DNA from: a virus
DNA: 48,944 nt
Reading direction: 5' to 3' (one strand)
IMG/VR virus record: IMGVR_UViG_3300006802_000143
Location: 1 to 48,944 of that record
Shown: piece by piece, positions 17,630 to 33,400 of the stretch
Position numbering within the stretch: position 1 is the first letter of the stretch
Layout of the letters: the number at the start of each line of letters is the position of its first letter
The notes under the pieces: generated by a model
Seen by the model: only the letters and a program-made list of their open reading frames with translations
Databases searched by the model: none
What the model was told of the DNA's origin: nothing
Translations under genes and position numbers: made by a program

Positions 17630-18380
17630 CTAGAGGGAGGGAGGGTTCGCTAGGGGCAGAACTCACCTAAGAGCATTGCTGCCCTTAGTGGTTTGCCTCC
17701 TGCCATTCAACCTGTCGGTCGGGATGGGACATAACGGGGCCAGCAGACACATGCAAGCGTTCTGCAGTCGAGGATTACGGTGCTTGCTACACCCCCTTCT
17801 CCCGGTTCCTCGCAGGCTTTCGCCTCACTCATTTCGGGTCGGCTTGGGAAGGTTCCCCGTAGCCTCTCAACACAGTTACGGCGGCGTAATGCGGTCTACC
17901 TGTGTCCAGTCGGGCGTAGGCTGGGTTCTGAGTCCCACTTAATTCGCAGCAAACTTCGGTCTGCGATCCTCTGTAGCAGCCAAAAGCAAAAACCCCGCAA
18001 GATGCTCTGTGGTCTTGGCTCTTGGCATGAGCAGCAGCAAGCGATTGAAGATAAGTCCAAAAGACTCGCCTACTACACGACAAGACCACACAGTACCCTG
18101 CGGGGTTTGTAACCTATCTTCATCGCCGGTTGCCACACCGACGGCCATACTGTATCTGGGGGTGAAAATCCGTGTCAAGTGGGGGAGTTGGGCTCGATTT
18201 GGCCTTCAACTACGGCAGGCAGGAAAGCCAGAAAACTACCTGCGTCGGCATCCTCGACTGGTGGCTTAACACCCAACACGGCTGGGGCCGCTCACATAAA
18301 GCAGTGTGGGCAATTGAACAACACTCTGAGAAGAGAGTCCGCGGCGCTAACCCGCTTTCAGCCCCATGCGTGTTGGTCCT
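17630..18380 (+). ncRNA. Candidate large structured RNA (about 750 nt)
   Basis: No credible gene lies between 17442 and 18459. The stretch holds strong pairings: 17650-17659 with 17679-17688 (10 bp including one G-U on the + strand); 17769-17774 with 17806-17811; GGCT/AGCC with GGGAA/TTCCC around 17841-17864; 17990-18017 with 18081-18108; a 12-bp pseudoknot 18041-18053 with 18115-18126; and 18275-18288 with 18361-18374 closing smaller hairpins. AT-rich sequence (17611-17630) upstream may hold a promoter. Size, ornate folding and phage context recall the GOLLD and ROOL classes of giant phage-associated RNAs, but I cannot match a consensus. The + strand is inferred from the G-U pair. Confidence 0.55.
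17990..18126 (+). ncRNA. Hairpin plus pseudoknot core of the candidate RNA
   Basis: AAACCCCGCA (17990-17999) pairs with TGCGGGGTTT (18099-18108), and TGTGGTCTTG (18008-18017) with CAAGACCACA (18081-18090), across a partly paired internal loop. Within the loop, GCGATTGAAGATA (18041-18053) pairs with TATCTTCATCGC (18115-18126), outside the hairpin, with one bulged T: an H-type pseudoknot. Thirty-two base pairs in 137 nt are far beyond chance. Confidence 0.75.
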
Positions 18381-19237: not shown

Positions 19238-20331
19238 TGAAAGCCATGCTCCAAAAACTGAAGGACTTTCTATTCAGGTTTTTCAGGAAGCAGCCGCCTG
19301 TCGAAGCCAAGCCGCAAGAGCCAAAGCCCAAGCGCAAGTACAACAAGCAGAAGTCCAAAGACTTTGGCGAACTGCTAGACAACTTGGAGATTACGTTCAA
19401 TTCCTTGAAGCTCCCGAACTTGGCAGGATCATGGCTGGAAAAGGATTCCATCATTGGCCTGAAAAAGATAGGCGCCCATGTGCCCAACCCTTGGGAGGTT
19501 AAGTTCACCAAGAAGACCAGCGACATCCTGATCGACGTGACTAGACCGTTGCCAGCAATCATGTGCATCTCTATTCCAAACGAGAGCGCTGAAGAAGGCA
19601 AACATTACCCAAGAATCATGTACGCCATCAAGCAAAAGCGTCTGCCTTGGAACGTCGCCTTCAAGCCTGGTGCCCCGTACATCTACGGTGCAGCCTACGA
19701 GTTTCATGGTGAATTGTTTTGGATGCACATGTATCTCACGGTCAATAAAAAGACCGGAGAGATCCATACCTGCGAGGAACTAAGGCAGATAGATAACGTG
19801 ATCAGGGGTAACGGCAAGACTACCTACTACAGCAACAAGCGCTGGGCGCCGCCAGCCTATCTGGAGAACGATGACCACAACGTCAAGGATATGGAGAACA
19901 CCTGCCTAAACCTGTTCCGGGCCATGCACGAATGGTGGGTTGACCGAGACCTGCGCTGGAACGTAGTGGTCAAGAAGAACGGGGAGCGGGTGACGTTTGG
20001 AATCAACGACAAGGACACAGCCTATTACTTTAAGAACCGGGACAAGGTTGTTTCAGAAAACGGGGTGACCAAGCGGATCGTCCACTACGTCAGGGAGCAC
20101 AACAGGGTAACAAATGGAAAGGAGACCACAATCAAGGAGCACATCAGGGGACTGAGGGAATTCAACTGGAACGGATATCACTGCAACGTCATATCTCCAA
20201 GGCTCGAGGTCAAGACCTCTGCGTTTTTTGAGGCGCCAGGCAACGATGTCGAGGAAGGAGCTGAAAAGGTAGTCTATCTCAGCAAAGTAGGAAAACTGCT
20301 GGCTGATTTTGAAGAAAGGAGAAGCGCATGA
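19234..20331 (+). CDS. Unrecognised 365-residue early protein
   Basis: Basic N-terminus (about 1-45, LFRFFRKQPPVEAKPQEPKP) followed by a mixed alpha/beta protein rich in aromatic residues (LFRAMHEWWVDRDLRWNVVV, EFNWNGYHCNVI). No nucleotide-binding or nuclease motif was found. ATGA overlaps link it on both sides. Base composition is lower in GC than the late genes. Its size and place before the recombination genes make it worth a structure prediction. I do not assign a function. Confidence 0.7.
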   Translation: MMKAMLQKLKDFLFRFFRKQPPVEAKPQEPKPKRKYNKQKSKDFGELLDNLEITFNSLKLPNLAGSWLEKDSIIGLKKIGAHVPNPWEVKFTKKTSDILIDVTRPLPAIMCISIPNESAEEGKHYPRIMYAIKQKRLPWNVAFKPGAPYIYGAAYEFHGELFWMHMYLTVNKKTGEIHTCEELRQIDNVIRGNGKTTYYSNKRWAPPAYLENDDHNVKDMENTCLNLFRAMHEWWVDRDLRWNVVVKKNGERVTFGINDKDTAYYFKNRDKVVSENGVTKRIVHYVREHNRVTNGKETTIKEHIRGLREFNWNGYHCNVISPRLEVKTSAFFEAPGNDVEEGAEKVVYLSKVGKLLADFEERRSA

Positions 20332-20642
20332 AACAACTGATCAAACTAATGAAAGCACGCCACGACTTCTATGTGAAGTACCCAAGTCTGGGTGCTACCC
20401 ATCTGCACCTGCTGGAGCGGATCGGAATCAGGGAAGGCGAGAACAATCCGCTGACCGTGACCGAGGCCATGAAGCTGGACGCAGTGGCTTCCCCGGCAAC
20501 GATCCACCGCCTGATGGATGACCTCGAATTCATTGGCCTTATCAACAAGTTCCACGCCAAGGGAAACATCCGCACCAAGTACGTGATCCTCGGGAAGAAG
20601 GGTTGGATGTACTTCCGCAAGGTTGCAAAGGAGATGTCATGA
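20328..20642 (+). CDS. Winged-helix (MarR-like) DNA-binding protein
   Basis: 104 residues. Helices HLHLLERIGIREGENN and LTVTEAMKLD, then recognition helix SPATIHRLMDDLEFIGLINK and a wing (GNIRTKYVILGKKGW). This is the classic winged-HTH order of MarR-type regulators, with a short N-terminal helix. It is coupled by ATGA to a hypothetical gene upstream and to the nuclease downstream, so it may control early or recombination genes. Confidence 0.75.
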   Translation: MKQLIKLMKARHDFYVKYPSLGATHLHLLERIGIREGENNPLTVTEAMKLDAVASPATIHRLMDDLEFIGLINKFHAKGNIRTKYVILGKKGWMYFRKVAKEMS

Positions 20643-21520
20643 TCCTAACCAACAAGCACAACCTGCCGGCCACGTTCGTCAACGTCATCAAGCGCCCTAC
20701 GTACAGCAAAGGCAAAGCCCATCTGTCGGCCACTGAACTACTCAACAGCCCTCAGATTGTCCAGCTCAAGCACCGCCACTGGGACGACATTGAAGTCGAT
20801 GCCAGCGAGATGGTCTGGTCCCTGTTCGGTTCCGCGGTGCACGGCATCCTCGAGCACGGCAAGGACAAGAACCACATCGTAGAAGAGCGCATCCACCTAA
20901 CCCACGACGGGTACAACCTGTCCGGCGCCATCGACCTGCAGGAGGTGGACGAGGACGGCGGTATCCACATCAAGGACTACAAGGTCACCGGCGCATGGGC
21001 AGCCCAGAACGAGAAGGAAGAGTGGCACCAGCAGCTGAACATCTACGCATGGATGGTAGCCAAAGCCAAGCAAAAGCCGGTCAAGTCCCTGCAGATCATC
21101 TGCATCGTGCGTGACTGGTCAGGCCGTGAGGCAGCAGCCAAGGAGTCCTACCCTCAAGCCCCTATCGTTTCCATCGACATCCCTCTGTGGACGTTCGAGG
21201 AGCAAGAGGAGTTTGTCAACGAGCGGATCCACCGCCACGCGACAGCCTACTTTGAGGCCGACACAGGGGGTGACCTGCCCGAGTGTACGGACGCAGACAT
21301 GTGGGCCAAGCCGGAATCATTTGCAGTCAAGAAAGAAGGAGGAGTCAGAGCCAAGAGCGTACACGTCACCCGCGAAGCAGCAGAGGCAGCGTTGCCACCC
21401 AAGGGGTATTTCATCGAGCACCGCCCCGGCGAGCGCACCCGCTGCGAGAAGTTCTGCCAGGTCAGCCCGTTCTGCCAGCAGCACAAACAATACCTAGCAA
21501 CGAAAGAAAACCATGAGTGA
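20639..21520 (+). CDS. PD-(D/E)XK nuclease, Cas4/RecB-like
   Basis: 293 residues from ATG 20639 (ATGA). Motifs in order: SLFGSAVHGILE (His68), GAIDLQEVDEDGGIHIKDYK (Asp99, Asp113-x-Lys115), and QQLNIYAWM (the Q-x3-Y helix). The C-terminal RCEKFCQVSPFC gives a cysteine cluster as in iron-sulfur RecB/Cas4-like exonucleases. Such phage enzymes resect DNA ends to give single strands for annealing. The next gene encodes a Sak-type annealing protein, so together they look like a recombination pair comparable in function to lambda Exo-Bet. Confidence 0.85.
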   Translation: MILTNKHNLPATFVNVIKRPTYSKGKAHLSATELLNSPQIVQLKHRHWDDIEVDASEMVWSLFGSAVHGILEHGKDKNHIVEERIHLTHDGYNLSGAIDLQEVDEDGGIHIKDYKVTGAWAAQNEKEEWHQQLNIYAWMVAKAKQKPVKSLQIICIVRDWSGREAAAKESYPQAPIVSIDIPLWTFEEQEEFVNERIHRHATAYFEADTGGDLPECTDADMWAKPESFAVKKEGGVRAKSVHVTREAAEAALPPKGYFIEHRPGERTRCEKFCQVSPFCQQHKQYLATKENHE

Positions 21521-22202
21521 AAACAACTTCATCAAGCTGGCGTCCATCAACGTCGGCGACCACATCGAGAAGAAGCAAAACCTGAGCTACCTGTCATGGG
21601 CCTGGGCCGTTGACCACCTGATGCGCCACGACCCCATGGCCAACTGGTCTTTCCACGAGCCCCAGATGTACGGCGAGACCATGATGGTTTCCTGTACCGT
21701 CACCGCCTTTGGCAAGCCCATCACCATGCACCTGCCGGTCATGGACCACCGCAACCAAGCCATCAAGAACCCTGACGCCTTTGCCGTCAACAAGAACATG
21801 ATGCGCTGCCTGGTCAAGGCCATCGCCTGCCACGGTCTGGGTCTGTACATCTACGCCGGGGAAGACCTGCCCGAGGGCGAGGAAGAGGAGCAGCCCAAGC
21901 CCAAAACGAATGGCAACGTTGCCAAAGCCGCCCCCAAGCCGCCCGCCAAGGTAGAGGGCAAGACCGGCCCATGGCAGATGGTTTTTACAACAGACGCAGA
22001 TGCAGACCTGCCGGCATGGATCGGGATTGTCATGGAGACCGCCCGGATGGCGCTTACCCAAGCAGCCACAGAGAAGGACATCATGGACATCTTCAAGGTC
22101 AACCGAGTCATCTTCGACCGCCTCAAGGCAGACGCCCCGGAAGACTACACCGCCCTGATGGCCGACTTCACCAAGCGCAAGAACGAACTGAAAGGAAACT
22201 GA
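21513..22202 (+). CDS. Sak-type single-strand annealing protein (DUF1071)
   Basis: 229 residues. The N-terminal 120 residues have LSYLSWAWAVDHLMRHDP, then GKPITMHLPVMDHRN and MRCLVKAIACHGLGLYIYAG, the diagnostic pattern of the DUF1071/Sak family, a Rad52-related recombinase that anneals single strands. An acidic, Pro/Lys-rich linker follows (with the 14-bp palindrome inside), then a helical C-terminal domain. The start overlaps the nuclease gene by 8 nt. It is likely to recombine phage genomes and explains the mosaic region downstream. Confidence 0.88.
   Translation: MSENNFIKLASINVGDHIEKKQNLSYLSWAWAVDHLMRHDPMANWSFHEPQMYGETMMVSCTVTAFGKPITMHLPVMDHRNQAIKNPDAFAVNKNMMRCLVKAIACHGLGLYIYAGEDLPEGEEEEQPKPKTNGNVAKAAPKPPAKVEGKTGPWQMVFTTDADADLPAWIGIVMETARMALTQAATEKDIMDIFKVNRVIFDRLKADAPEDYTALMADFTKRKNELKGN
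21911..21924. repeat. 14-bp palindrome TGGCAACGTTGCCA, copy 4
   Basis: Exact copy inside the linker of the annealing-protein gene, where it encodes GNVA. It sits in a low-complexity part of the protein, which tolerates insertions. Confidence 0.9.
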
Positions 22203-22203
22203 A

Positions 22204-22497
22204 ATGGCAACCAAGTACCCCAACAGCGGCAAGCTATCCGCCAACCGCTACAAAGACAACGAGAAGAAGCCAGACGTGGTCGGCGAGCTGGTCATGACCC
22301 GCCAAGCTTTGAAGGGTTTGCTCGAGGAGACAGACGAGGACGACATCACCATCAAGCTATCCGGCTGGAACATGGACGGGCAATACGGAGCATGGACCCG
22401 GCTGGCATGGAACAACTACAAGAAGCCCACGGATGGCAACGTTGCCAAACCCCAGCAGCAGGCGCTGCCAGCCGATGACGGCGACGTGCCCTTCTGA
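22204..22497 (+). CDS. SSB-tail protein next to the annealing protein
   Basis: 97 residues. Beta-rich core (VVGELVMTRQALKGLLEETD, then DITIKLSGWNMDGQYGAWTR) followed by a Gln/Pro linker and the tip LPADDGDVPF. Acidic residues closed by PF match the SSB C-terminal tail. The core is not a typical SSB OB fold but may be a short single-strand binder. It is adjacent to the annealing protein and nuclease, so a recombination role is probable. The palindrome copy 5 falls just before the tail. Confidence 0.7.
   Translation: MATKYPNSGKLSANRYKDNEKKPDVVGELVMTRQALKGLLEETDEDDITIKLSGWNMDGQYGAWTRLAWNNYKKPTDGNVAKPQQQALPADDGDVPF
22434..22447. repeat. 14-bp palindrome TGGCAACGTTGCCA, copy 5
   Basis: Exact copy in the linker of the SSB-tail gene, 510 bp from copy 4. 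It encodes DGNVAK, nearly the same peptide as copy 4 (NGNVAK). Confidence 0.9.
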
Positions 22498-22499
22498 TC

Positions 22500-22652
22500 A
22501 TGGCAGAAAGAGAGAAGCACTTACGTTACGCAGAGGCTTACTTTCTCATGGAGCAAGAAAGCTATCTGCTGCCGTTGGCCATGAGGGGCGGTGTCTTTGA
22601 GCGCCGCATGTGGCTAGAACTATTCAAATGGGCAGGATGGAGAGAGAAATGA
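22500..22652 (+). CDS. Small helical hypothetical protein
   Basis: 50 residues from ATG 22500, 2 nt after the SSB-tail gene and in ATGA overlap with the next. AEREKHLRYAEAYFLMEQES and RRMWLELFKWAGWREK are amphipathic and aromatic. Below the common size cut-off, but the coupled junctions support it. Confidence 0.55.
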   Translation: MAEREKHLRYAEAYFLMEQESYLLPLAMRGGVFERRMWLELFKWAGWREK

Positions 22653-23068
22653 GTCACCCACAATTCGAGGCCGTCAAGGTCGCACTAAAGCAGGACCGTA
22701 CTGGATACATCCTCACCCTGAACATCCATCCAGATGATCTGGACGAGCGTATCCTGCGCGACTTCGTCGGGGCCCGCTACCAAGTCGTCATGGTCCGGCT
22801 CAACGGGGACGAGGCACCCATGAACCGGGACAGGGACATCGGCATGGACCCGGTCAAGCTGGCCGGCATCCTGTGCAAGGACAAAGACTTCCAAGAGTAC
22901 CTGTTCCAGACAGGCCAGATCCTCGAGCCGGAAGAGCTGTCCACTGTTGGCTGGCTCAGGACCACGCTGGAGATTGAATCCCGCACAGAGCTGCGCAACG
23001 ACAAGATCAAGGCCCAGAAGTTATACGCAATCAATGAAGGATTCAAATCATGGAAGCACGCCGGTTGA
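22649..23068 (+). CDS. Conserved phage protein of unknown function
   Basis: 139 residues from ATG 22649 (ATGA). YILTLNIHPDDLDERILRDF followed by VGARYQVVMVRLN is a pattern I recognise from many phages of Gram-negative hosts, next to recombination genes, without known function. The C-terminal half is helical with a charged end. It overlaps the RHH gene by 19 nt. Confidence 0.7.
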   Translation: MSHPQFEAVKVALKQDRTGYILTLNIHPDDLDERILRDFVGARYQVVMVRLNGDEAPMNRDRDIGMDPVKLAGILCKDKDFQEYLFQTGQILEPEELSTVGWLRTTLEIESRTELRNDKIKAQKLYAINEGFKSWKHAG

Positions 23069-23367
23069 TTCCCTACTCCGTGCACCTGCCGGAGGATATC
23101 TACAAGAAGCTGAAGGCCGCGGCCGGGGAGAGAAAGGCGTCAGCCTTGGTACGGGATGCCATCTCCCTCATCCTAGACGGAGGAGACGCCTACACCAACG
23201 GATACAACAAGGGGCTGGCAGATGCAATGGACGTTATCAACAGCAACGAGACCACGCGCAGCCTGTCCATCAACGGGCAGAACCTTGGCCTTGCTCTGAC
23301 GTACAGCATCACCAAACTAACAATCAAGGAGAAAGCAAATGGCAAGAAAAAAGCCCGAGGGAATTGA
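23050..23367 (+). CDS. Ribbon-helix-helix regulator
   Basis: 105 residues. IPYSVHLPEDIYKKLKAAAG and ERKASALVRDAISLIL give the strand and two helices of a CopG/Arc-type RHH dimer. The C-terminal extension (about 50 residues) is mixed and ends basic. It overlaps both neighbours. RHH dimers bind short inverted repeats, so it is one candidate reader of the palindromes reported here. Confidence 0.7.
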   Translation: MEARRLIPYSVHLPEDIYKKLKAAAGERKASALVRDAISLILDGGDAYTNGYNKGLADAMDVINSNETTRSLSINGQNLGLALTYSITKLTIKEKANGKKKARGN

Positions 23368-23539
23368 GGCGCTCAAGCCCAAGCAGGATCCGATCTCCAT
23401 CCAAGAGATCACCATGCTGGACTGGTACGCGGCCTTTGCCCTGCTCGGGGCGTCACCCATGTCCACCCCGGAGGACACGGCACGGGCGGCATTTGACCAG
23501 GCCGAGGCCATGCTGCAGGAAAGGGGGGTACGGATGTGA
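23339..23539 (+). CDS. Small hypothetical protein
   Basis: 66 residues. Basic start (ARKKPEGIEALKPKQ), then MLDWYAAFALLGASP and EDTARAAFDQAEAMLQER. L-D-W-x-A-x-x-A-L is typical of a common short phage family placed in early operons. It overlaps the RHH gene by 29 nt and the next gene by ATGA-type junction. Confidence 0.6.
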   Translation: MARKKPEGIEALKPKQDPISIQEITMLDWYAAFALLGASPMSTPEDTARAAFDQAEAMLQERGVRM

Positions 23540-24069
23540 CCAAAGACGAAGCATTGAAGCTGGCGCTGGAGGCGCTGGAGTACATCGAACACAATTACAT
23601 GAGTCTGCCGAAATCGGGGGAGACAGCCATCACCGCCATCCGAGAAGCCTTGGCACAGCCAGAGCAGGAGCCGGTGGCGTGGTTTGAGCACAACCCTGAC
23701 TTGGATGCGTGGTTTCTGGCGTATAGCAAAAACCAGAATCCAGGCATCAAAAGCCGCCCGCTTGTGTTTGGCGACACCGCCCCACCACAGCGCAAGCCAG
23801 AGCAGAAGCCGGTGGCTCACACGCTGAATTGCGTATGTGGCGCTGTATGGGACATCAAATCTGATGGGAGCGAGGAAATGGCACATACACCTGACACCAC
23901 CCCACCACAGCGCAAGCCGCTGACGGATGAGGAGATTTGGGACGAAGTAAAAGCGGCTGACCTTGATTGGCAGACTGGATGGTCTTTGGATGAGGACGCA
24001 TCAAACCGCTACATCACATTTGCCCGAGCCATCGAAGCTGCACACGGCATCATAGGAGAACAGAAATGA
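23536..24069 (+). CDS. Mosaic cassette protein 1 (PEQEPVAW / QRKPLTDEEI / RAIEAAHG)
   Basis: 177 residues from GTG 23536. TKDEALKLALEALEYIEHN and AITAIREALAQPEQEPVAW form an N-terminal module common in phages of Betaproteobacteria. Then TPPQRKPLTDEEIW and FARAIEAAHGI, shared with three other genes in this block. A Pro-rich segment repeats PPQRKPEQKPVAH/PPQRKP internally. No catalytic motif is seen. The proteins look like adaptors put together from exchangeable modules. Confidence 0.65.
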   Translation: MTKDEALKLALEALEYIEHNYMSLPKSGETAITAIREALAQPEQEPVAWFEHNPDLDAWFLAYSKNQNPGIKSRPLVFGDTAPPQRKPEQKPVAHTLNCVCGAVWDIKSDGSEEMAHTPDTTPPQRKPLTDEEIWDEVKAADLDWQTGWSLDEDASNRYITFARAIEAAHGIIGEQK

Positions 24070-24365
24070 AAAGCACAGACATCATCAAAGCATCGACCAA
24101 CAGCCTGAACATTTACTCATTCACAGCAGAGGCACTTGAAAGACTGATTGAGGCCATAAAAACGGAGCAGTCTTGCAAGACTTGCGAAGCATTGGCGCGA
24201 ACCGTGATGCTTGACCAGACATCGCATGACGCACAGCGCAAGCCGCTGACGGATGCGGAGATCAGCAGAATCTGGATGCTGAACGGCGGGGGACTTGCTG
24301 CAAACCGCTATCACGACTTTGCCAGAGCCATCGAAGCCGCCCACGGCATCAAGGGGGACGCATGA
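24066..24365 (+). CDS. Mosaic cassette protein 2
   Basis: 99 residues in ATGA overlap. Unique helical N-terminus with CKTCEALARTV, then AQRKPLTDAEISRIW and FARAIEAAHGIKG, the same C-terminal module as cassette protein 1 with a different head. Function unknown. Confidence 0.65.
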   Translation: MKSTDIIKASTNSLNIYSFTAEALERLIEAIKTEQSCKTCEALARTVMLDQTSHDAQRKPLTDAEISRIWMLNGGGLAANRYHDFARAIEAAHGIKGDA

Positions 24366-24544
24366 GCGAAGTAATCGTTGATGGCGTGAGATGGTCGCCG
24401 TTCTTGGTCGAGTTCGACACGCAAGAAGGCACGTTCCAGTTTGAACTGTTCGCGCTCGACTGGGCGCACGCAATAGATCGGCTTGAAGAACTCAAAGCCA
24501 CGGCAAAGGTAATTGGCGAGAAGCCGCAAAGGATTGAAGCATGA
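24362..24544 (+). CDS. Small hypothetical protein
   Basis: 60 residues, SEVIVDGVRWSPFLVEFDTQ then FQFELFALDWAHAIDRLEEL. Two strands, a hairpin and a helix. It has no shared module and separates two cassette genes. ATGA overlaps on both sides. Confidence 0.6.
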   Translation: MSEVIVDGVRWSPFLVEFDTQEGTFQFELFALDWAHAIDRLEELKATAKVIGEKPQRIEA

Positions 24545-25047
24545 CAACCGAACAATATTCAATCGGCTATGACGAAGGCTATCAGGCCGGATGGAATGAA
24601 GCGATGGAAGCCAATCCAGCACAGCAGCAGGAGCCGGTGGCGTGTCCAAATGGCAAGCCGTGCAAGCACGGAGCATGGTGTACCGAAACTTATTGTCAAG
24701 AACACTGTGAGTTTCGTGCCCCACCAGCACAGCCAGAGCAGGAGCCGGTGGCGGTAATAGACAGCACAATTTCAGGCAACATTGATTGGCGTTGCGTAGT
24801 CTTTCCAAAAGATGGGACAAAACTCTACACCACCCCACCACAGTCAGAGCGTGTGATTGACAAATCTGCGGCGGTACGGATTGCTACGTCACTTGGATGG
24901 GAGCCTAAGCGCAAGCCACTGACGGATGAGGAGATTCAAAAGTGCTACGAAACAACTGGGCATTGTCAAACGCTACGACCACAAGACAGGTTTGCTGTGT
25001 TTGCGTTAGCCCGAGCCATCGAAGCCGCACACGGCATTAAGGAGTGA
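24541..25047 (+). CDS. Mosaic cassette protein 3
   Basis: 168 residues. The head (YSIGYDEGYQAGWNEAME) is a G-x-x-x-G-x-x-x-G-W helix also seen in 25051-25329 and 26455-26640. A cysteine-rich insert follows (CPNGKPCKHGAWC then YCQEHC), then PEQEPVAV, KRKPLTDEEIQKCY and LARAIEAAHGIKE. It combines nearly all modules of the block in one chain. A zinc site is likely; function unknown. Confidence 0.65.
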   Translation: MTTEQYSIGYDEGYQAGWNEAMEANPAQQQEPVACPNGKPCKHGAWCTETYCQEHCEFRAPPAQPEQEPVAVIDSTISGNIDWRCVVFPKDGTKLYTTPPQSERVIDKSAAVRIATSLGWEPKRKPLTDEEIQKCYETTGHCQTLRPQDRFAVFALARAIEAAHGIKE

Positions 25048-25053
25048 GAGATG
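25021..25053 (+). repeat. 33-bp exact direct repeat, copy A (partner 26871-26903)
   Basis: It spans the end of one cassette gene (EAAHGIKE and stop), GGAGTGAGAG ribosome site and the next ATG. It carries module end, stop and ribosome site as one unit, so recombination here swaps whole genes without breaking frames. Confidence 0.85.
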
Positions 25054-25329
25054 ACAGACGACAAACTTATTGAACTGGCCCGCAAAGCGGGCATAAACGC
25101 CGAAAGCGACACCTTGTGCCGCTACGAAGGTTGGGTTGGCCCATTAAAACAGTTTGCTGCTCTTGTGTTGGCCAACAACCCCCCGCAGTCTTTCATGTCG
25201 TGGCAGGAAGGGTATGAGGCAGGCAGGCTGGCAGAGCGCGAGCGCCTTCAGGCTTTCATGCGGCAGATGTTTGATGCGTATTCACTATCAAGCGATCCGG
25301 GCGGGCTAAAGAACAGGGGCAACAAATGA
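25051..25329 (+). CDS. Mosaic cassette protein 4
   Basis: 92 residues. DDKLIELARKAGINAESDTL and LKQFAALVLANN are a common phage head module; SWQEGYEAGRLAERERLQAF is the shared E-G-Y-x-A-G helix. The 33 bp before and into its start (25021-25053) are identical to 26871-26903, so the same upstream end is used twice. Confidence 0.6.
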   Translation: MTDDKLIELARKAGINAESDTLCRYEGWVGPLKQFAALVLANNPPQSFMSWQEGYEAGRLAERERLQAFMRQMFDAYSLSSDPGGLKNRGNK

Positions 25330-25520
25330 GTGTCCCCTACAACGACGACACCAGAGAGTCATACATTAAGCGCCATGAAGAGGGGCAGCTGTGGTTGGCC
25401 AAGCGCCACTGCGAGCTGGGTAACGAGTTGTCCATGTGGCAGGCACTGTTTACATGGGTTCAATGTGAAGAGATCTACGGCACACACTGGGACAAGATAA
25501 AGGAGAGGAACCATGGCTAA
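25326..25520 (+). CDS. Small hypothetical protein
   Basis: 64 residues in ATGA overlap. SVPYNDDTRESYIKRHEEGQ, then NELSMWQALFTWVQCEEIYG. Mostly helical and charged. It overlaps the following gene by 8 nt. Not recognised. Confidence 0.6.
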   Translation: MSVPYNDDTRESYIKRHEEGQLWLAKRHCELGNELSMWQALFTWVQCEEIYGTHWDKIKERNHG

Positions 25521-25815
25521 CAGACCTTTGACAAGAAAAGAATGGATGGCTTACTTGGAAAAAGCCTGTGATGAGTTTGATTGGGAAGGCGCAAACAAGC
25601 CCTGCTCCGACTGCGAGTACCACAAGAACCGCGCTGCCAGATGGCGAGCCGAAGCCTACAAGCAAGCAGGGCACGATGTGATCGAACTGCCGTGGGTTGG
25701 GCTGACGGCAGATGAATTGAACATGATTGGCGACAGTATGCGGACATGGAACAGCCATTCTTTGACGGATGTTTACGTTGCCATCGAAGCCAAACTCAAG
25801 GAGAAGAACACATGA
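25513..25815 (+). CDS. Mosaic cassette protein 5
   Basis: 100 residues. Head ANRPLTRKEWMAYLEKACDE with CSDC, then WVGLTADELNMI and a C-terminus VAIEAKLKEKNT. WVGLT and the AKLKEKNT end are shared with 26901-27152, and the last 30 bp (25786-25815) are identical to 27123-27152. Confidence 0.6.
   Translation: MANRPLTRKEWMAYLEKACDEFDWEGANKPCSDCEYHKNRAARWRAEAYKQAGHDVIELPWVGLTADELNMIGDSMRTWNSHSLTDVYVAIEAKLKEKNT
25786..25815 (+). repeat. 30-bp exact direct repeat, copy A (partner 27123-27152)
   Basis: It covers EAKLKEKNT, the stop codon and the overlapping start of the next gene (AAGGAGAAGAACACATGA). As with the 33-bp repeat, the unit contains the ribosome site and ATGA junction. Confidence 0.85.
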
Positions 25816-26123
25816 AATCGTTGAGCAAACTACATCAAGAGGCAATCATCAAAGCGCAGAACGAAACCGACCAGAACAAAGCGGCGGCACTGGCGATGAT
25901 TGAAACGCCCATCGAGATGATTAAAGCAATTATTCTCAAGCATGAGATAGCTGTCATTGAGGTGATGCGTGAACTGCACGAATCCCGCGAGGCGGCTGTT
26001 AGGGCAGAGCGAGAGGCTATTGCGCAGTCTCTGGACAAACAAGCAGACCTTGCCGCTGATGATATTGACAGACAGTGGGCGATGGAAATGGCGAAGGCAG
26101 TTAGATCAAGGAGCAACAAATGA
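25812..26123 (+). CDS. Hypothetical helical protein
   Basis: 103 residues from ATG 25812 (ATGA). Continuous charged helix (LSKLHQEAIIKAQNETDQNK, MRELHESREAAVRAEREAIA) suggesting a coiled coil. No shared cassette module. Function unknown. Confidence 0.6.
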   Translation: MKSLSKLHQEAIIKAQNETDQNKAAALAMIETPIEMIKAIILKHEIAVIEVMRELHESREAAVRAEREAIAQSLDKQADLAADDIDRQWAMEMAKAVRSRSNK

Positions 26124-26458
26124 GTGGAGATCACAACATGAATCAAGCAACCAGACAAATTAAACGAAACCTCGGCATTGGAGATGTTGGGCTACAAATT
26201 GAAGAAACGCAAGAATACAAAAGCCAGATTGAGCGCCAGTGCGAGGAGATGCAAGCCACAATTGACTTGTTGAAAGCAACAGTGGAAACGCTGTATATGC
26301 GCCTTAAACCTGTGATGGCAGACGCTCCTATGCGCTCTGCCACCAATGAGGTGTCACCAGTAGCGTCACCATTGGGCTTGTCAATCAATCAATACCGACA
26401 GCAGACATCCGCTGTGATTGACGAGCTTGTCCACATCATTGAAAGCCTTGAGATATGA
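26120..26458 (+). CDS. Hypothetical coiled-coil protein
   Basis: 112 residues. Residues about 25-65 are a coiled coil (EETQEYKSQIERQCEEMQAT). A Ser/Pro middle and a helical end follow (QYRQQTSAVIDELVHIIESL). Coupled by ATGA on both sides. Not recognised. Confidence 0.6.
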   Translation: MSGDHNMNQATRQIKRNLGIGDVGLQIEETQEYKSQIERQCEEMQATIDLLKATVETLYMRLKPVMADAPMRSATNEVSPVASPLGLSINQYRQQTSAVIDELVHIIESLEI

Positions 26459-26640
26459 ATCAAAAATCTGATTCGCCCGACTGGAATAGCTACAAGCAAG
26501 GATGGGATGACGGAGTGATGGCAGAGCGCCAGCGCATCGTCAACCTGCTGATGATCCAGCACGATGCGGCAAAGGGAGCGCACAACTATTGGCACGTTGC
26601 GGCAAATTTAATCAAAGCAGAATCAGGAGAAAACGTATGA
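26455..26640 (+). CDS. Small protein with the YKxGWDDG helix
   Basis: 61 residues. SDSPDWNSYKQGWDDGVMAE and RQRIVNLLMIQHDA form the same G-W/E-R-Q-R helix type as other cassette heads. ATGA overlap both sides. Confidence 0.6.
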   Translation: MNQKSDSPDWNSYKQGWDDGVMAERQRIVNLLMIQHDAAKGAHNYWHVAANLIKAESGENV

Positions 26641-26897
26641 GTAAAGACACAAGATGGGAACGAGGCATTGAAACATTCTCAGACGAGCAGTTGCTGTTTG
26701 AGTTGGTGCGCCGTAACGGTTTTCAACGAGCCGCAAAAAGGACAGAGTATTGCGGTGAAGGCTGGATGACCAGCACGGTTGGTATTGGCAAAGACCACAG
26801 CGTATCAATCACGATGGATGCAGATGACTTCAAAGAGCTTGCGGCACTTGCTGTTGTGGGGTTTAAAACCGAAGCCGCACACGGCATTAAGGAGTGA
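26637..26897 (+). CDS. Mosaic cassette protein 6
   Basis: 86 residues from ATG 26637 (ATGA). Unique head (DEQLLFELVRRNGFQRAAKR, strand HSVSITMDADDFKELAAL) joined to TEAAHGIKE, the truncated end module of cassette proteins 1-3. The module here is cut to about nine residues, as expected from recombination in the conserved DNA. Confidence 0.6.
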   Translation: MSKDTRWERGIETFSDEQLLFELVRRNGFQRAAKRTEYCGEGWMTSTVGIGKDHSVSITMDADDFKELAALAVVGFKTEAAHGIKE

Positions 26898-26903
26898 GAG
26901 ATG
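26871..26903 (+). repeat. 33-bp exact direct repeat, copy B
   Basis: Identical to 25021-25053, again linking EAAHGIKE, stop, ribosome site and ATG. Confidence 0.85.
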
Positions 26904-27152
26904 GACAAAGATGGATACAACGATACCCAAGAAGCGTACGAGCGCGGGTTCATTGACGGGATGCAGAAACAAATGCAGTCCAGCGTGGACAAGGCGGTCA
27001 ATGGCATGACGCGCACATGGGTTGGGCTGACAAAACAAGATGTGTACGACCTGTACAACAAGATGTTTGCTCAAGAAGGCAATAACATCGCCACAAGGTA
27101 TCAGGACTTTGCAAAATACCTTGAAGCCAAACTCAAGGAGAAGAACACATGA
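26901..27152 (+). CDS. Mosaic cassette protein 7
   Basis: 83 residues. EAYERGFIDGMQKQM is a Y-x-x-G-x-x-x-G helix, then TWVGLTKQDVYDLYNKMFAQ and FAKYLEAKLKEKNT. It shares WVGLT and the C-terminus with cassette protein 5 but not the head. Confidence 0.6.
   Translation: MDKDGYNDTQEAYERGFIDGMQKQMQSSVDKAVNGMTRTWVGLTKQDVYDLYNKMFAQEGNNIATRYQDFAKYLEAKLKEKNT
27123..27152 (+). repeat. 30-bp exact direct repeat, copy B
   Basis: Identical to 25786-25815; it carries EAKLKEKNT, stop and the ATGA junction with the Ref-like gene. Confidence 0.85.
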
Positions 27153-27442
27153 GCCATATCAAACGCCACATGAACGACGTGGCGGATCTTGGCTGCATCC
27201 TATGCCGGCACCTTGGATATGGCCAGACACCTGCCATCCTGCACCACCCCCGCGGGGCAGCAGGCGGCGCTCAGAAGGCGTCAGACTGGCTGGTCATACC
27301 CCTATGCCCAACCCACCACGTAGACCCCAAACAGGGCTATCATGGGCTGGGCGACGGCGGCTTCTTCACCAGATACAAGCTGACAGAGTGGGATCTCCTG
27401 GCCATGACCATCGAGGCTCTGGCCAAGGAGCGCAACCCGTAG
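27149..27442 (+). CDS. Ref-like HNH nuclease
   Basis: 97 residues. CILCRHLGYGQTPAILHHPR gives the C-x2-C and His-His of the fold; then WLVIPLCPTHH with a later H-x-GLG. This is the pattern of the phage P1 Ref family, RecA-dependent nucleases that cut at a displaced strand. It is the last gene of the rightward operon and converges with the 2029-residue late gene (1-nt gap). With the upstream nuclease and annealing protein it completes a recombination set. Confidence 0.8.
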   Translation: MSHIKRHMNDVADLGCILCRHLGYGQTPAILHHPRGAAGGAQKASDWLVIPLCPTHHVDPKQGYHGLGDGGFFTRYKLTEWDLLAMTIEALAKERNP

Positions 27443-27443
27443 G

Positions 27444-30400
27444 TTACAGATTGGCCATCTCGCGCAGCTTCTTCAGGTTTACCCCTTGGAGTAGCTGCCG
27501 CTCAGCCTCTCGCAGCTGCTTGATCTGCCGCTGCTTCTCATCCTCGTCCATCCGATCTTCTGACGCTTGACTAATCATGGTCACAGCTTTGCGGATGTTA
27601 GTTAGTTGCGTGGCAATCTGGTTAACGGCCGGAGCCAAGGCAACTCGCTGACGGACCGTCTCATCCGACAGGTAGTCTGCAATGTCTTGCGGGCTACGTT
27701 GCTTCAGGTCAGACAGAGTTGAAGCCGCGCGCTCGGTCACCTCTCTCAGGGCATAGAAGTCCTTGCGCAGAGCAGATTCATATTCTTTGGAAACGAATCC
27801 ACTAGCGTTGGGGATAGTGGCCAATGCATCTTGGAAAGACAAAGACGGGCGCGGAGTGCCGGACATCTCAGCCAAGATCGGATTAGTCATGTACATGAGC
27901 AAACCACCAAATGACCCAAACATACCGCGGATCAGGTGATCTGCCACGATGGGCGATACCACGCCGGTCTTGCCCAGCAGCTTGGAAATCTCAGACGTGC
28001 TGTCCTCGAACTGGCGCCCCAGCTCTTTCTTCTGCTGGAACAAGCCAACCAACGGCTTCTGCTGGAAGAAGTCGTAGTTGATGATTGCCTCTGTCAGCGG
28101 CTTGATGGCCTGTGGCACAGGCGTCGGGCTCAGGATAGAGTTGGCCAACAGTGATGCAAGAGACGCACGGAACTTTGCTGAATCCTCATAGCCGTTATCC
28201 GTGAGCAGCATGTACGTATGCTCGGCAACCACCTTGGGTAGCGCAAAGATGTCCGCGCGCAGTGGGATGCTGAATCCACCAGAGCCAGGGATCATCAGCA
28301 GACGGTCACGCGTAGGCGTCGGCTTGTTCAGGTAATCCTCGTCGTCACCATTCATCATGGCGTACAGGACAGACAGAGCCATCACCGAGCCGGTCGTGGC
28401 AGCCAGCGTTTGGAAGGCTGCCTTGCGCTCAGTGGGCGACGTGCCAACACCGGTCAGCGTACGGTAGGCCACATGCTGGGCAGCGAGGTAGGCGTTGAAG
28501 AACGGGATAACCTGGCCAGCCAAGGCAAGCATCTTGCTGTTGCCGCGGCGGCGCACGTTGAAGATCTCGAACGCCTTCTCATACGCCTCTGCTTTGCTCA
28601 AGCCCTGAGCCTCTGCCGCCTCGAACGTGGCCTGACGCACAGCGTTATCAGCGGCCATGGCCAAGTTGCCAAGCTTGCGCTTTACGCCAGCCCAGAAACT
28701 CTTTTCTTGCTTGAGCCCCGCAAAGATCTCGGCATCAGCACGGATCACGGCAGACGTGAAGTCACGCACGCCAACGGCACCAATGTTCTTCAGCTCCTCA
28801 TGCGCCTTGCTCTTGCCGCGCAGGGTCTGGATAAATTCCTTGACCGCACGAAAGGGAATGGACAGGGCGTACTGCGGCTTCAAGCCGGACGTGAACATTG
28901 CAGCAAACGAGTCCTGCGGAACCTGAGCGATAGAGAACAGGGGGTACAGCACCACAGACTGACGCAGCACGTCAGCCATCTTGCTGAACACTTTGACCGT
29001 CGGGATAGCCACAGACTCGAGACCACGGAAGGCTGACATAAACAGCGGGTCAGCCATGTTATAGCCAACCCTTTCCCCGTCTTGCCAAACGTAGACCAGA
29101 TTGTCCGCAGGCATGGGAGGAGACAGTACATATCTCTTTACCATTTTCCCATCTTGCTCCACCTCAACCGCCAAGACTCCGTAATCCTTCAGAGAATCTT
29201 GGGTGGCGCGAGCTTGGCTTGCTTGAGCGGGCGTATTGAACGGGATAACACCACGACCGGAAACCTTTTCCAGCATCGGGTTGCCTTGCTCATCAAACCC
29301 AATCCCAATGTTGTCTGGATTGTTCTTGTCATGGATTTTGTTAGCAAGGCCAAGCTTTTCGGCCGTAGTGGCAAGCGCCACGCCGGAGCGGTTGCGTACA
29401 CCGCGGTTGATGGCGTACTGAGTCCAGCGCACCATGTTGTCAAAGATGTCGTTGACCGGCTTCTCTGACCCTTTCAATCCTTTGTCCGCTTGTACAGCCA
29501 GCGAACGCAAGAACTCTTTCGGACCCTTGCCTTCTTCAATTTGATCCTCGCGGAAAAACGGAACGTACCCGGCTGCATCCATAAGCATGTCTGCTTCTTC
29601 TCTTGTGTAAAGGCCGGTGTCAACCATTACATCAAGAGCATTGCTACGAATGCCGTTCCAAATCTCAGAGACTTCGTTAAGCTCTGGGAACATCTTGAAG
29701 AACTGCATGCCAGTCTGAATTTTTTCCGCCGGCATGTTCTTTGTATTCTTGCGCTTAGCAAGAAGGGCTTGTGCCTTGTCACTCAAAGCGCTTGCGGCAA
29801 CAGGCTTTCCTGCCGCGCGCATAGCCCTAGCCTCTGCCCGCATGGCCTCAACCTGAGCATCAATGTTGTCATTGAACTCATTAAGTTCTTGTGTGCGGCG
29901 AGCCTCAAAAGCCGTATGGGCAATAAGCTCAATCTGCTCTTTTGTTAAACCGTGCTTTTCCGCAATCTCGTCCAGCTTTTTGGACAGATTGAAGATGTTG
30001 CGATCATCCTTGACGCCGACCCACTTGTGCAACTCAGTGTCGTACTTGATGTTGCCTTCCATTAAGAACAGGTTGGCAATGGCGTCAGAGTGAGCGGTCT
30101 GGCTCAGGCTGGTGTTGAGCAGCATTCCAATCTTCTGCTCGTTACCAACCATGGAGTTCATCACTTCACGGCGGATCTGGTTGTTCAGCGCAGCATCACT
30201 GCTGAATGACCACGTCTCAACCTGATCGGCAAACTTTCGGAATGCGCCGTACGCAGCCTCTCGGGTAGCCTTTGGGTTGTCGCGCGCGTTGTCCCAAGAC
30301 TGACGAACCTTTTGGATGTAGCCAGGCTCAGGCGGGGCAACAGAGCGGCCAATACCCTCGAGCATCTCCATGGCATCGTTGCCCATCTGGGTGCGAACAG

Positions 30401-33400
30401 GTGCTGGTTCTTTTGTTGCAAAGCCAAGAATGGGCTTCTCAAGCGCAAACATTTCCATCTGTCCAACGCTTGCAATCGGAGCTGCGTCAGACTTTGCGGA
30501 AGATGTGACGCGATCCATGTAGTCAATAAACGTCTCTGATGGCAAAAAGTTTTTACCGCGCAAAGAGTTAAAGAATCGCTTGAGTGCCGCTCCAAGCTTT
30601 GCAAAAAACTTTTCAACAACGCTCAAAGGTTTCTCTTGGGTGGTTGCCCAACGAGAAACTTGGTCTGCGTACCACTCATCAAAGCGACGCCAGTAGGACC
30701 GCATTTCAGAAGACATCAAAGATGCATCCGTCTTTGCTGCAGCGCTTCTTGCAAACCGCTTTGCGCGCATGCTTTCAATGTGCTCTCGAGCAGTTTTGCC
30801 TTGATTTGATTTCAGCCACTTGTTGTACTCATCAACAATTGCCTTCTTCATTTCTGGAGAAGCATTGTTAAAAACCACAACCTCATGGATGTGCCCAAGC
30901 TCATGGGCTAAAACCTCCAGCATTCTTCCTACGCTGGTAGATTTTGTGAATGTTATGTAGTACTCACCATTGCCAAGGTGACGCATTGTTCCTTCAGCAT
31001 TTGGGTCAAGCGCTGCAGATCCTATCCGGCGATACGGACCCGTGAAGTTTTTGCTGTTTGCTCTAGCGTCTTCAATGGTTGTGATGTAAACATTATTTGG
31101 AATGTTCAACATCTTTTTCCATCCGCGCAAAACCGAAACCATGCGTGGATCTATATCCTTTGAAAAACCAAGACCATCTTTGTCAAACTTGACTACGGTT
31201 TCTTTGCGCTTTGATTCTTCTTCAATAACTTGTTTTCTTGCGTCCGACAATTCTTTTTTCTGCTCGGGCGTCAGATTAAGAGGGTTGGTTTGAATGCTTT
31301 CAATATCTTTCCCAACCCGATACTCACCCTTAAACGGAATGTAAACAGGGTCTCCATTGATTGCACTGTACGCCTGAACCAATCCAATGTCGCCATTTTG
31401 GTAGACAACAGATCCGCCAAAGTCTTTGGCGTGAGCATTTGCATTTTTGGATTGCTCTGGGTTGGCGCTAATCAGGGCATACTTTTCATATAACGGCTCT
31501 TTGCTTGTTGCCGCCGTCAATGCGTTGTACAAAGCACCACGATACTGGGCATCAGTTGCATCCGGCATGCGGCGAGCAACATCTTCCTTGATAGCCTCAA
31601 CGTCCAAACCAGTGTTGGCCGCCTCTTCCATCAGATCCTGCAGACTTGGCTCGGCAGGGCGACGACCTGCAGCCAACTCACGATTTATGGCTGGCAACGT
31701 TTCCAGTTTCTCCAGCTCAGCCTTGGCCGCATCCCGCTGTTGCTCCAGCGCAGCCAAGTTTGCAGCCTCAATCTCTGACGTGTAATCACCAGACCGCAGC
31801 TTGCCGGTAATGTGATCAATTGCAGCCTGAGAATCAAACCTTGGATTCTCTTGGCCGCCAACCAGCTTGCGGTTCTCGGGAGGCAGGAAGTCGTCCAGCG
31901 CCCCATCCTCAACCATGTCCTCAAGCAGGGCGCCTTTGCCTTCCTTGTTGTACAGGCGACGCAGGGACTTCTTATCCACGTCGATATCAGCCAGGTTAAT
32001 CGAGCCCGGACGAAAAGTCAGTTTGCCCTCGAGCGCCTTGAACAGGCTCGTCTTTTGAGCCTTGGCTGCGGTAATGTCCTTGTTGATGGCCGCAAGACTT
32101 TCCTTGACGGACTTGATCTCTGCCTGCTCTTCAGGCGTGAATTCAAACTTCTGCACGCCACGGGGCTTGGCTTGCGGCTCAGTCTCGAGCGGCTCACGTT
32201 TGCCGTACAGGCCGGCCGGCTCTTCCAGCTGGGCAGGGGCGGCAGGCTCTGCAGGGGCGGCAGGGGCGGCAGGGGCGGCAGGACCAGCCCCCAATCGCTC
32301 CAGCTCTCTACGCTTAATCAGCTCATTTCGCACAGGATCCGGGTCAAACGTGGCTGCCTGAATCTGTCTGATCTGCGCTTGGCGCTGTCGTTCTGCGGCA
32401 ACAGCTTCAGCCCGAACCTGGTCTTCCTCCGCCTGTCGCCGCTCTTCCATGGCTTGACGAATGGCAACGTTGCCATCCGATCGGGTAAACCCTGACATGC
32501 CGGCAACACGTTCTTGCTGGGCAAGCATGGCCGCCTCAATCCTGGCCACGTCATCCAGACGGTTCTGCTCAATAGCCTGCTGACGCATCTGCTCCAACTG
32601 CTCGGCTTCTTGCCGCAGGTCTTGGGCTTGTTGCGCAGAGAACCCGGGGCGGGCCGGCTGGGCCTCTATGCTAGGCAGGCCAAGGGCGGCAGGTGCTTCT
32701 GGTGCAGCAGCTGCAGCAGGCGGCCTCTCCGGGGGCGGGGTAACTGCGCCCTTAGCACGACGGCCAAGAGTCAAATCAACCAACAGACTGGTTAGCGCGC
32801 CAACACCAGCGCCATAGACGCCTTCCTCACCTGATCCTTCAAGCACGTCTTTCTTGGGATCGTAGACGCCTTTGGCAATGTAGTTCTGGGCCACCTTCTG
32901 GGCGGCTTCGGTCAAACCTTCCACCCCACCGCGGGCAAGGGCAGTGGTGAAGATACTCTTGAGTGGACCAATGTTGGGGGCAAGAATGTCCAGCATGCCT
33001 GTTGGCGCGCCCAACGCAGTAGCCCGACTAATCTCTTCAGGCGTAGCGCCCGCTTGTTCTGCGGCCTGACGCGCTTCACCGGCACCAGCGGAAACACCAA
33101 GAGCGCCAGCGCCAACACGACCAGCAAGGCCCAAAGGACCGGCAACAAAAAATGGTAGAGTAGATCCAACACCAGAAAGCAGTTTGCTAGATACGCTCTC
33201 GCCAATCTCAGGCGTAGCAGGAGCCAAGTACTCGCGGGTGGGTTTGGCCAAGCTCTCAATGCCAGCTCGAACAGACTTCTCGTAGTCTTCCGGCAACAGG
33301 GCAGACGCGCCAATTGCAGACGTTTCCAACAGACCAGTGGCACCACGGCCAACGGCTTTAGGAATGTCCTTTAAGTAATCCTTGAAGCCAGTTTCTTTCT

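Follow-up and report, generated by a model that had tools for sequence, protein, structure and literature searches.

Short coding boxes shared by many phages mark a probable gene-shuffling zone in an uncultivated tailed phage

Here we describe a block of 12 small plus-strand genes in a 48,944-nucleotide (nt) stretch of viral DNA (IMG/VR record IMGVR_UViG_3300006802_000143, positions 1 to 48,944; hereafter the window). The block is flanked upstream by a conserved gene of 66 residues (23339-23539) and downstream by a gene for a Ref-like nuclease (27149-27442), and its genes mostly overlap their neighbours by a few bases. We propose that recombination shuffles genes here, at a constant position in the genome of an uncultivated tailed phage, and that some eight short DNA boxes (20-34 nt) form the joints between the parts of which the small genes are made. 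Comparison with other phage sequences documents exchange at the scale of both genes and modules, as well as sharing of the boxes at the level of DNA. We consider it probable that this shuffling proceeds by short-homology recombination at translation-ready boxes, via Sak-like annealing proteins or RecA.

Repeated boxes at gene ends and within genes

Two terminal boxes, T1 and T2, both span the last codons of a gene, a Shine-Dalgarno sequence (AAGGAG), the stop codon and the ATG of the next gene; in T1, these two codons overlap within the sequence ATGA. Each occurs twice in the block, T1 as an exact 30-nt repeat and T2 as an exact 34-nt repeat (Table 1). A preliminary description of this DNA had reported exact repeats of 33 and 30 base pairs (bp) across gene junctions. 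Both are confirmed, the 33-bp repeat lying within the 34-nt one, and the expectation of such repeats by chance in 3.6 kb of random DNA is 6e-12 (30 bp) and 9e-14 (33 bp).

Boxes within genes encode PEQEPVA (E1), TTPPQR (P1) and QRKPLTDEEI (K1), all of which recur between unrelated parts. The E1 sequence at 23653-23679 is repeated at 24727-24753 (27 nt, 100% identity) and more weakly at 23791 (78%) and 24616 (74%), while copies of K1 are located at 23906-23936, 24232-24262 (97%) and 24905-24935 (90%). The module FARAIEAAHG is found in genes A and 2 and as LARAIEAAHG in gene 4; gene 11 has just the end of this module (TEAAHGIKE). Upstream parts differ among these four genes despite the shared tails. 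The recurrence of the PEQEPVA, QRKPLTDEEI and FARAIEAAHG modules behind unrelated heads, as first described, is therefore borne out by the located copies and their differing upstream parts.

Across the loci compared, recurrent 20-mers in differing contexts were mainly linkers and gene ends, and further boxes were identified from this list: W1 (WVGLTDEE), T3 (AAGGGGACAAGCATGA) and H1 (EALKLALEALE). As most loci had been picked for T1, T2 or gene 4, boxes other than T1 and T2 are the less biased part of the list. AlphaFold2 models of the products of gene A (43 sequences, mean pLDDT 72.8) and gene 12 (45 sequences, mean pLDDT 80.1) predict a helical hairpin as the tail of both, with a confident helical hairpin as the head of gene A and a low-confidence middle. 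Given hairpins at head and tail and a low-confidence middle, E1 and P1/K1 can be read as flexible links, where fusion would be cheap. A 266-residue member of the EPVA family at another locus (L040:5527-6324) contains a helix-turn-helix-like stretch, recognized by eye, between two EPVA linkers, so inserts may include recognisable domains.

Boxes as DNA common to many phages

A degenerate scan of IMG/VR for EAKLKEKNT followed by a stop codon listed at least 120 stretches. The identical T1 30-mer was present at 69 of the 148 distinct sites compared, against 0.03 expected over 148 sites from the codon usage of the same contigs (L003-L007, L209, L223 and L224 left out), or 0.34 when codons dictated by the Shine-Dalgarno sequence and ATG are set aside. 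Synonymous sites of T1 outside the Shine-Dalgarno sequence and start are nearly fixed (GAA 96%, GCC 91%, AAC 96%). Conservation stops at ATGA: over the next 60 positions, information never exceeds 0.25 bit per position (145 sites).

Copies of the phage's own sequence and overlapping loci (L003-L008, L209, L211, L223 and L224, later also L237-L240) were excluded from the breakpoint, pairing, indel, frame and record-sharing counts, and from those on gene 8 and on pairings of gene middles. The exact 30-mer occurred in 72 of 227 records, and 87 of 2,556 record pairs have at least 500 nt in common. T1 links 59 upstream clusters to 105 downstream protein clusters, with 112 distinct pairings among 129 sites usable on both sides (out of 152, heads below 25 residues being left out); for the exact 30-mer alone, there were 48 distinct pairings among 57 sites. 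An open reading frame of at least 40 codons starts from the overlapping ATG at 131 of 141 sites with a complete reading, versus 14 and 12 in the other frames. Copy number is low, with one to three T1 per record in 25 of 28 records.

Genes joined by T1 are diverse. Pfam searches of 94 downstream proteins (from the 105 clusters, 10 with proteins below 40 residues being unrepresented and L201 left out of the alignment) returned single cases of YqaJ, integrase, YfbR-like, glutaredoxin, DUF3310, RecA_dep_nuc and Lar, to which PHROGs added replication proteins and nucleotide kinases. Matches of the 59 tail-bearing upstream proteins to Pfam and PHROGs were scattered and mostly weak.

Among 50,697 phage records, matches were few and all environmental: two lake records by DNA (one of these also by protein) and three spring records by protein, with none for gene 7. 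T1 is present in OR003939 and OR003940, which are circular phage records, and in two contigs among GTDB species genomes, both from metagenome-assembled genomes, one alphaproteobacterial and one betaproteobacterial. No cultured phage with the box system was found among the phage database matches, nor was a cultured host.

Rearrangement of the block in relatives

The preliminary description had proposed a gene-shuffling zone, and had named colinearity and conservation of the block in distant relatives as the observation that would speak against one. The block is instead non-colinear in relatives, with joins on repeats in the clear cases, and it differs from that of the window in all of L225, L226, L230, L233, L234 and L271. 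In record 3300025732_000002, which represents the same phage (99.98% identity over 20.7 kb), it is identical.

The most informative relative, L225, is 71-93% identical to the window in long aligned parts and tracks it to 23682, just past EPVAW, after which follow a different insert, K1 and a T2 box. This T2 box leads straight into window gene 8, the join falling at the start codon. The same gene 8 sits behind T1 in the window and behind T2 in L225, and window genes 2-7 are missing from L225. Gene 8 is under strong purifying selection (ratio of nonsynonymous to synonymous substitution rates, dN/dS, 0.03 versus L225). The head of gene A is partly kept in L225, whereas its insert is different; the head's dN/dS of 1.06 was rejected as a sign of neutrality, as the middle of the head has been replaced rather than diverged. 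L225 also fuses the start of gene 9 to the end of gene 10, and a 9-bp direct repeat, ATGAATCAA, is located at 26138-26146 and 26455-26463 in the window. This could suggest a deletion between the two repeats, although sequence past the join aligns poorly.

Other relatives vary further at the same site. Similarity between L226 and the window extends to about 23589, beyond which L226 has different genes, including one that ends in T1. L230 has a different set of small genes at the position of the block. In L233 and L234, the whole block is absent and a single 70-residue gene lies between the two flanking genes. Gene order is permuted in L271, where the homologue of gene 11 precedes gene 8 rather than following it as in the window. 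This homologue ends in VVGFKP and a stop codon, while the window copy runs on into nine residues encoded by T2.

Exchange of whole genes at a box is illustrated by L101, which carries a 1,747-nt insert with several genes exactly between T1 copies, with one further T1 inside; L181 and L187 run through the site of this insert with one T1. Across 36 loci, the genes that precede gene 8 belong to 15 families, and their ends are T1, T2, T3-like or unrelated (36 of 41 loci were used, five in which the match starts inside the gene being left out).

Modules within genes are exchanged as well. Among clusters of tail middles, 19 of 36 occur on upstream parts that are less than 40% identical, 4 of 20 occur with both T1 and T2 ends, and 5 with both K1 and W1 starts. 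Usual pairings are strong, with W joined to T1 in 157, K to T2 in 75 and mixed pairings in 8 of 240 distinct middles. Over the 7.2 kb compared, L011 resembles the window in block modules alone; one of its proteins combines the first insert of gene 4 (90% identity over 129 nt) with the gene A tail (95% over 170 nt). In L051, the gene end is a T2/T1 hybrid joined at AAGGAG. Hybrid ends were observed at L051:3360-3884, L030:2312-2866 and L066:5869-6234 (AAHGIKEKNT, AAHGIKENT and AAHGIKEEA, respectively), which suggests that T2 has repeatedly been joined to other ends at the common AAGGAG. Of T1, just the final 16-17 nt are retained in L245 and L255, where they follow unrelated sequence.

Breakpoints, proposed mechanism and alternatives

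Under the reading we favour, internal boxes (E1, P1, K1 and W1) would encode linkers beside predicted helical hairpins, where fusion is tolerated. Terminal boxes (T1, T2 and T3) would encode the last residues and stop of one gene and provide the following gene with a Shine-Dalgarno sequence and ATG, so that anything joined there would be translated. As the same boxes are present at DNA level in many unrelated phages, two phages in one cell that share a box and little else could recombine at it, annealing or strand exchange over 20-34 bp joining left and right sides. What is exchanged, in frame, could range from about 25-50 codons to one gene or several consecutive genes, and the product would be readable because linkers tolerate fusion and terminal boxes bring their own translation start. 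We infer that the exchange uses the box as its homology and is carried out either by host RecA or by an annealing protein of the phage, in this case the neighbouring Sak. T1 (30 bp) and T2 (33-34 bp) would be about long enough, as PMC3945230 quotes 23-27 bp for Red-beta and 31-34 bp for RecA as the minimum length for pairing.

In a stringent set, 35 of 326 breakpoints fell in boxes, compared with 15.6 in a shifted control (standard deviation 3.6, maximum 28 in 300 trials). Box junctions were breakpoints in 22 of 71 cases (31%) and plain gene junctions in 116 of 586 (20%; odds ratio 1.8, p=0.044). Boxes were at both ends of 14 and at one end of 66 of 317 replacements. Many contigs are mutually related, and breakpoint and indel counts are not fully independent. 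An initial count (185 of 1,002 breakpoints in boxes versus 60.8 in shifted controls) was discarded as inflated, since an alignment that consists largely of boxes will also end at one.

Several observations weigh against recombination targeted to boxes. Most stringent breakpoints lie outside them, and box junctions exceed plain ones only modestly. A box was found at one end or both in 5 of 35 clean indels, and at both in only 1. Most junctions upstream of gene 8 across the 36 loci are not T1, T2 or T3, and the second join of L225 has little more than ATGA in common, which is shorter than a box. Sak, ERF or RecT was found in 8 of 28 box-bearing records of at least 30 kb, window included, although records may be fragments. 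Moreover, most loci were chosen for carrying boxes, and recombination was read from sequences rather than observed directly. Boxes are therefore only one of several kinds of joint, and selection for harmless joins must be taken seriously as a rival.

According to this rival, illegitimate joins occur anywhere, survivors are those at linkers and gene ends, and boxes are kept as good translation signals and linkers. We hold it to be rather unlikely. It accommodates the near-equal use of plain junctions as breakpoints, the majority of clean indels without boxes and the many box-free junctions upstream of gene 8, and the T1 codons AAG GAG and ACA are accounted for by the Shine-Dalgarno sequence and ATGA. 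It does not readily explain why synonymous sites outside these signals are also near-fixed (69 exact copies against 0.34), why L101 differs from L181 and L187 by an insert whose absence leaves exactly one box, or why gene 11 holds nine T2-encoded residues that its homologue lacks.

Alternatively, boxes could be selfish, spreading by gene conversion as tiny mobile sequences, with exchange of neighbours as a by-product. The many kinds of gene preceded by T1 (YqaJ, integrase, glutaredoxin, HD hydrolase and DUF3310) would fit such spread, as would partial grafts such as the T1 ends in L245 and L255 and the T2 end alone on gene 11. We nonetheless consider it very unlikely, since records mostly hold one to three T1 copies, and the placement of T1 as gene end plus start requires no self-spread. 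Joining of unrelated phages at short repeats by metagenome assemblers is the least credible explanation: nearly all sequences are metagenome contigs with joins at repeats, but the block is identical in 3300025732_000002 (a possibly independent assembly), T1 occurs in the two circular records, joins are in frame at 131 of 141 sites, and module copies diverge by several percent rather than being identical.

Shuffling by short-homology recombination at the boxes therefore stays our preferred account, with the enzyme less certain than the exchange itself. The preliminary description had placed Sak in the role of promoting recombination at short homologies, but Sak as the driver is not established, given its family's presence, with ERF and RecT, in only those 8 of 28 records. 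Unless records are incomplete, other annealing proteins, a co-infecting phage or host RecA would act elsewhere. No record exceeded the cut-off for AAA_24 (Sak4-type) in a search that left Rad52_Rad22 and other annealing families outside its scope.

Whether mosaic joining in phages reflects illegitimate recombination or short conserved boundaries is a long debate. The phages compared here represent a natural population with plentiful boundaries in coding sequence that recur between otherwise unlike phages, and the question can therefore be addressed over many events and by means of a simple assay. Existing segments that recombine at linkers and gene termini may also be a source of the many small phage genes without known function. 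More speculatively, uncultivated aquatic phages may share a parts standard, in which a small set of nucleotide-level boxes, kept in genomes that are otherwise unlike for the sake of exchange or through self-spread, enables in-frame exchange of protein modules and genes and yields new small proteins by combination, an idea we regard as possible if rather doubtful.

Function of the block proteins

Rapid turnover of the small genes suggests accessory roles for their products. The more specific proposal made at the outset, of anti-defence or host-takeover proteins, is unsupported. PADLOC matched none of the 94 genes downstream of the 30-bp box, and a single homologue of the restriction-alleviation protein Lar was present among them. 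An anti-defence function was rejected on the absence of PADLOC matches, the scattered weak Pfam and PHROGs matches of the 59 tail-bearing proteins and a structure search with gene A, which gave nothing below E 0.78. The head of gene A showed a weak likeness to Tad1 (Foldseek E 1.7; VIA Z 6.4 over 48 residues, confined to the head and its helical hairpin), with no sequence match to Tad1. Unrelated proteins reach Z 5.6 and below in this comparison, and 6.4 is within the range of unrelated helical hairpins. The modelled Tad1-like hairpin is kept only as a lead.

Features of the window

Coordinates of the block genes, boxes and flanking recombination genes are collected in Table 1. Pfam assignments of the flanking genes (SSAP_Sak and PDDEXK_1 upstream, RecA_dep_nuc downstream) agree with the earlier description of an annealing protein and nucleases around the block. 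The PD-(D/E)XK nuclease is probably the partner exonuclease of the annealing protein. The RecA_dep_nuc gene also comes after the variable site in L233 and L234.

Table 1. Positions of genes and boxes in and around the variable block
Feature	Position	Strand	Remarks
PD-(D/E)XK nuclease, flank	20630..21520	+	Pfam PDDEXK_1, E 1.9e-08
Sak single-strand annealing protein, flank	21513..22202	+	Pfam SSAP_Sak, E 1.9e-42
Gene A	23536..24069	+	helical head, EPVA linker, two variable inserts, KPLTDEEI tail
Box E1	23653..23682	+	AQPEQEPVAW linker; similarity to L225 ends at 23682
Boxes P1 and K1	23893..23936	+	TTPPQRKPLTDEEI
Gene 2	24066..24365	+	unrelated head, K1, AAHG tail
Gene 3	24362..24544	+	without box module; PHROG 10509 (unknown function), E 3.4e-11
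Gene 4	24541..25047	+	other head, two EPVA inserts, K1, tail ending in T2
Box T2, copy 1	25020..25053	+	EAAHGIKE, Shine-Dalgarno, stop, ATG; exact repeat
Gene 5	25051..25329	+	missing at corresponding place in L225
Gene 6	25326..25520	+	missing at corresponding place in L225
Gene 7	25513..25815	+	head and WVGLT tail ending in T1
Box T1, copy 1	25786..25815	+	EAKLKEKNT, Shine-Dalgarno, ATGA; exact repeat
Gene 8	25812..26123	+	conserved gene
Gene 9	26120..26458	+	contains ATGAATCAA; in L225 truncated and joined to gene 10
Gene 10	26455..26640	+	starts with ATGAATCAA; fused form in L225
Gene 11	26637..26897	+	ends in nine-residue T2 tail; L271 homologue ends without it
Box T2, copy 2	26870..26903	+	exact repeat
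Gene 12	26901..27152	+	head and WVGLT tail ending in T1; predicted C-terminal helical hairpin
Box T1, copy 2	27123..27152	+	exact repeat
Ref-like RecA-dependent nuclease, flank	27149..27442	+	Pfam RecA_dep_nuc, E 6e-08

Further features were observed outside the block. A 97-residue gene after Sak (22204-22497), without a Pfam match, ends in DGDVPF, which we take to resemble the acidic tip of single-strand-binding proteins. The minus strand encodes a 2,029-residue protein immediately after the block and convergent with it (27444-33533); this neighbour is also next in L230, L233 and L234, with DNA similarity from 27682 on. Tandem repeat arrays of 21 and 42 bp (36361-36987) are located inside a minus-strand gene for a glycine- and glutamine-rich protein of 529 residues. 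Lastly, L232:5404-5563 matches window positions 17979-18142 at 90% identity over 164 nt, compared with 70-79% in other long common segments.

Comparison with known systems

Several known systems resemble the block in part, as far as the accessible text of the sources cited here describes them. Integron cassettes and diversity-generating retroelements were rejected, as the window record, which may be incomplete, encodes neither a Phage_integrase domain nor RVT_1. In T4-type phages, promoter-early stem-loop (PeSL) cassettes carry short intergenic repeats that mediate shuffling (Arbiol 2010; Comeau 2014; PMC4503421). PeSL elements are promoter-terminator units, whereas the boxes here are translation-initiation and coding elements. 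Cassettes of the PeSL type were rejected, since a consensus scan of positions 20000-27500 against shuffles gave no excess of promoter-like (3 versus 3.7 expected) or terminator-like sequences (11 versus 9.3).

The Start-Associated Sequences (SAS) of cluster K mycobacteriophages are 13-bp repeats with a Shine-Dalgarno sequence right before the starts of different gene families, mostly behind wide intergenic gaps, at 11-19 per genome and in one cluster (PMC3203893). T boxes, in contrast, form part of coding sequence, next to or across stop and start codons; T1 mostly numbers one to three per record, and the boxes span unrelated phages. T1, T2 and T3 are also other sequences than the SAS consensus GGGATAGGAGCCC, with T1 and T2 matching only its Shine-Dalgarno core. 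Fragments common to otherwise unrelated phage proteins were described by Smug et al. 2023 (PMC10684548), who stress receptor-binding proteins, endolysins and polymerases. Modules here, unlike those, are tens of residues long, belong to tiny proteins of unknown function and have DNA-level boxes at their joins.

A closer parallel is gene 68 of mycobacteriophage Island3, which, in comparison with Brujita, was inserted through recombination between repeats of about 50 bp encoding the last 18 residues of two neighbours (PMC3029335). Its geometry is that of T1 in L101 and L181, but it represents a single event in one cluster, whereas here a box repertoire is found in many phages and is accompanied by module swaps. 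For lambdoid phages, short conserved intergenic sequences have been proposed as homologous recombination sites that exchange modules (Susskind and Botstein 1978; Clark et al. 2001; PMC3029335). The boxes are similar in that one short DNA sequence recurs where different genes meet (for T1, 59 clusters upstream and 105 downstream) and breakpoints fall at them (L101/L181/L187 and the window/L225), with a modest overall excess. They differ in lying inside coding sequence, where they encode last residues or interdomain linkers, in permitting exchange within genes and in being common to phages without other similarity. No report of these boxes, searched for by motif peptides and by gene-end or boundary repeats, was found in open papers, subscription papers being mostly outside the search. 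The principle of exchange at boundaries is known, and its coding, repertoire-wide form, with boxes serving both within and between genes, appears to be new.

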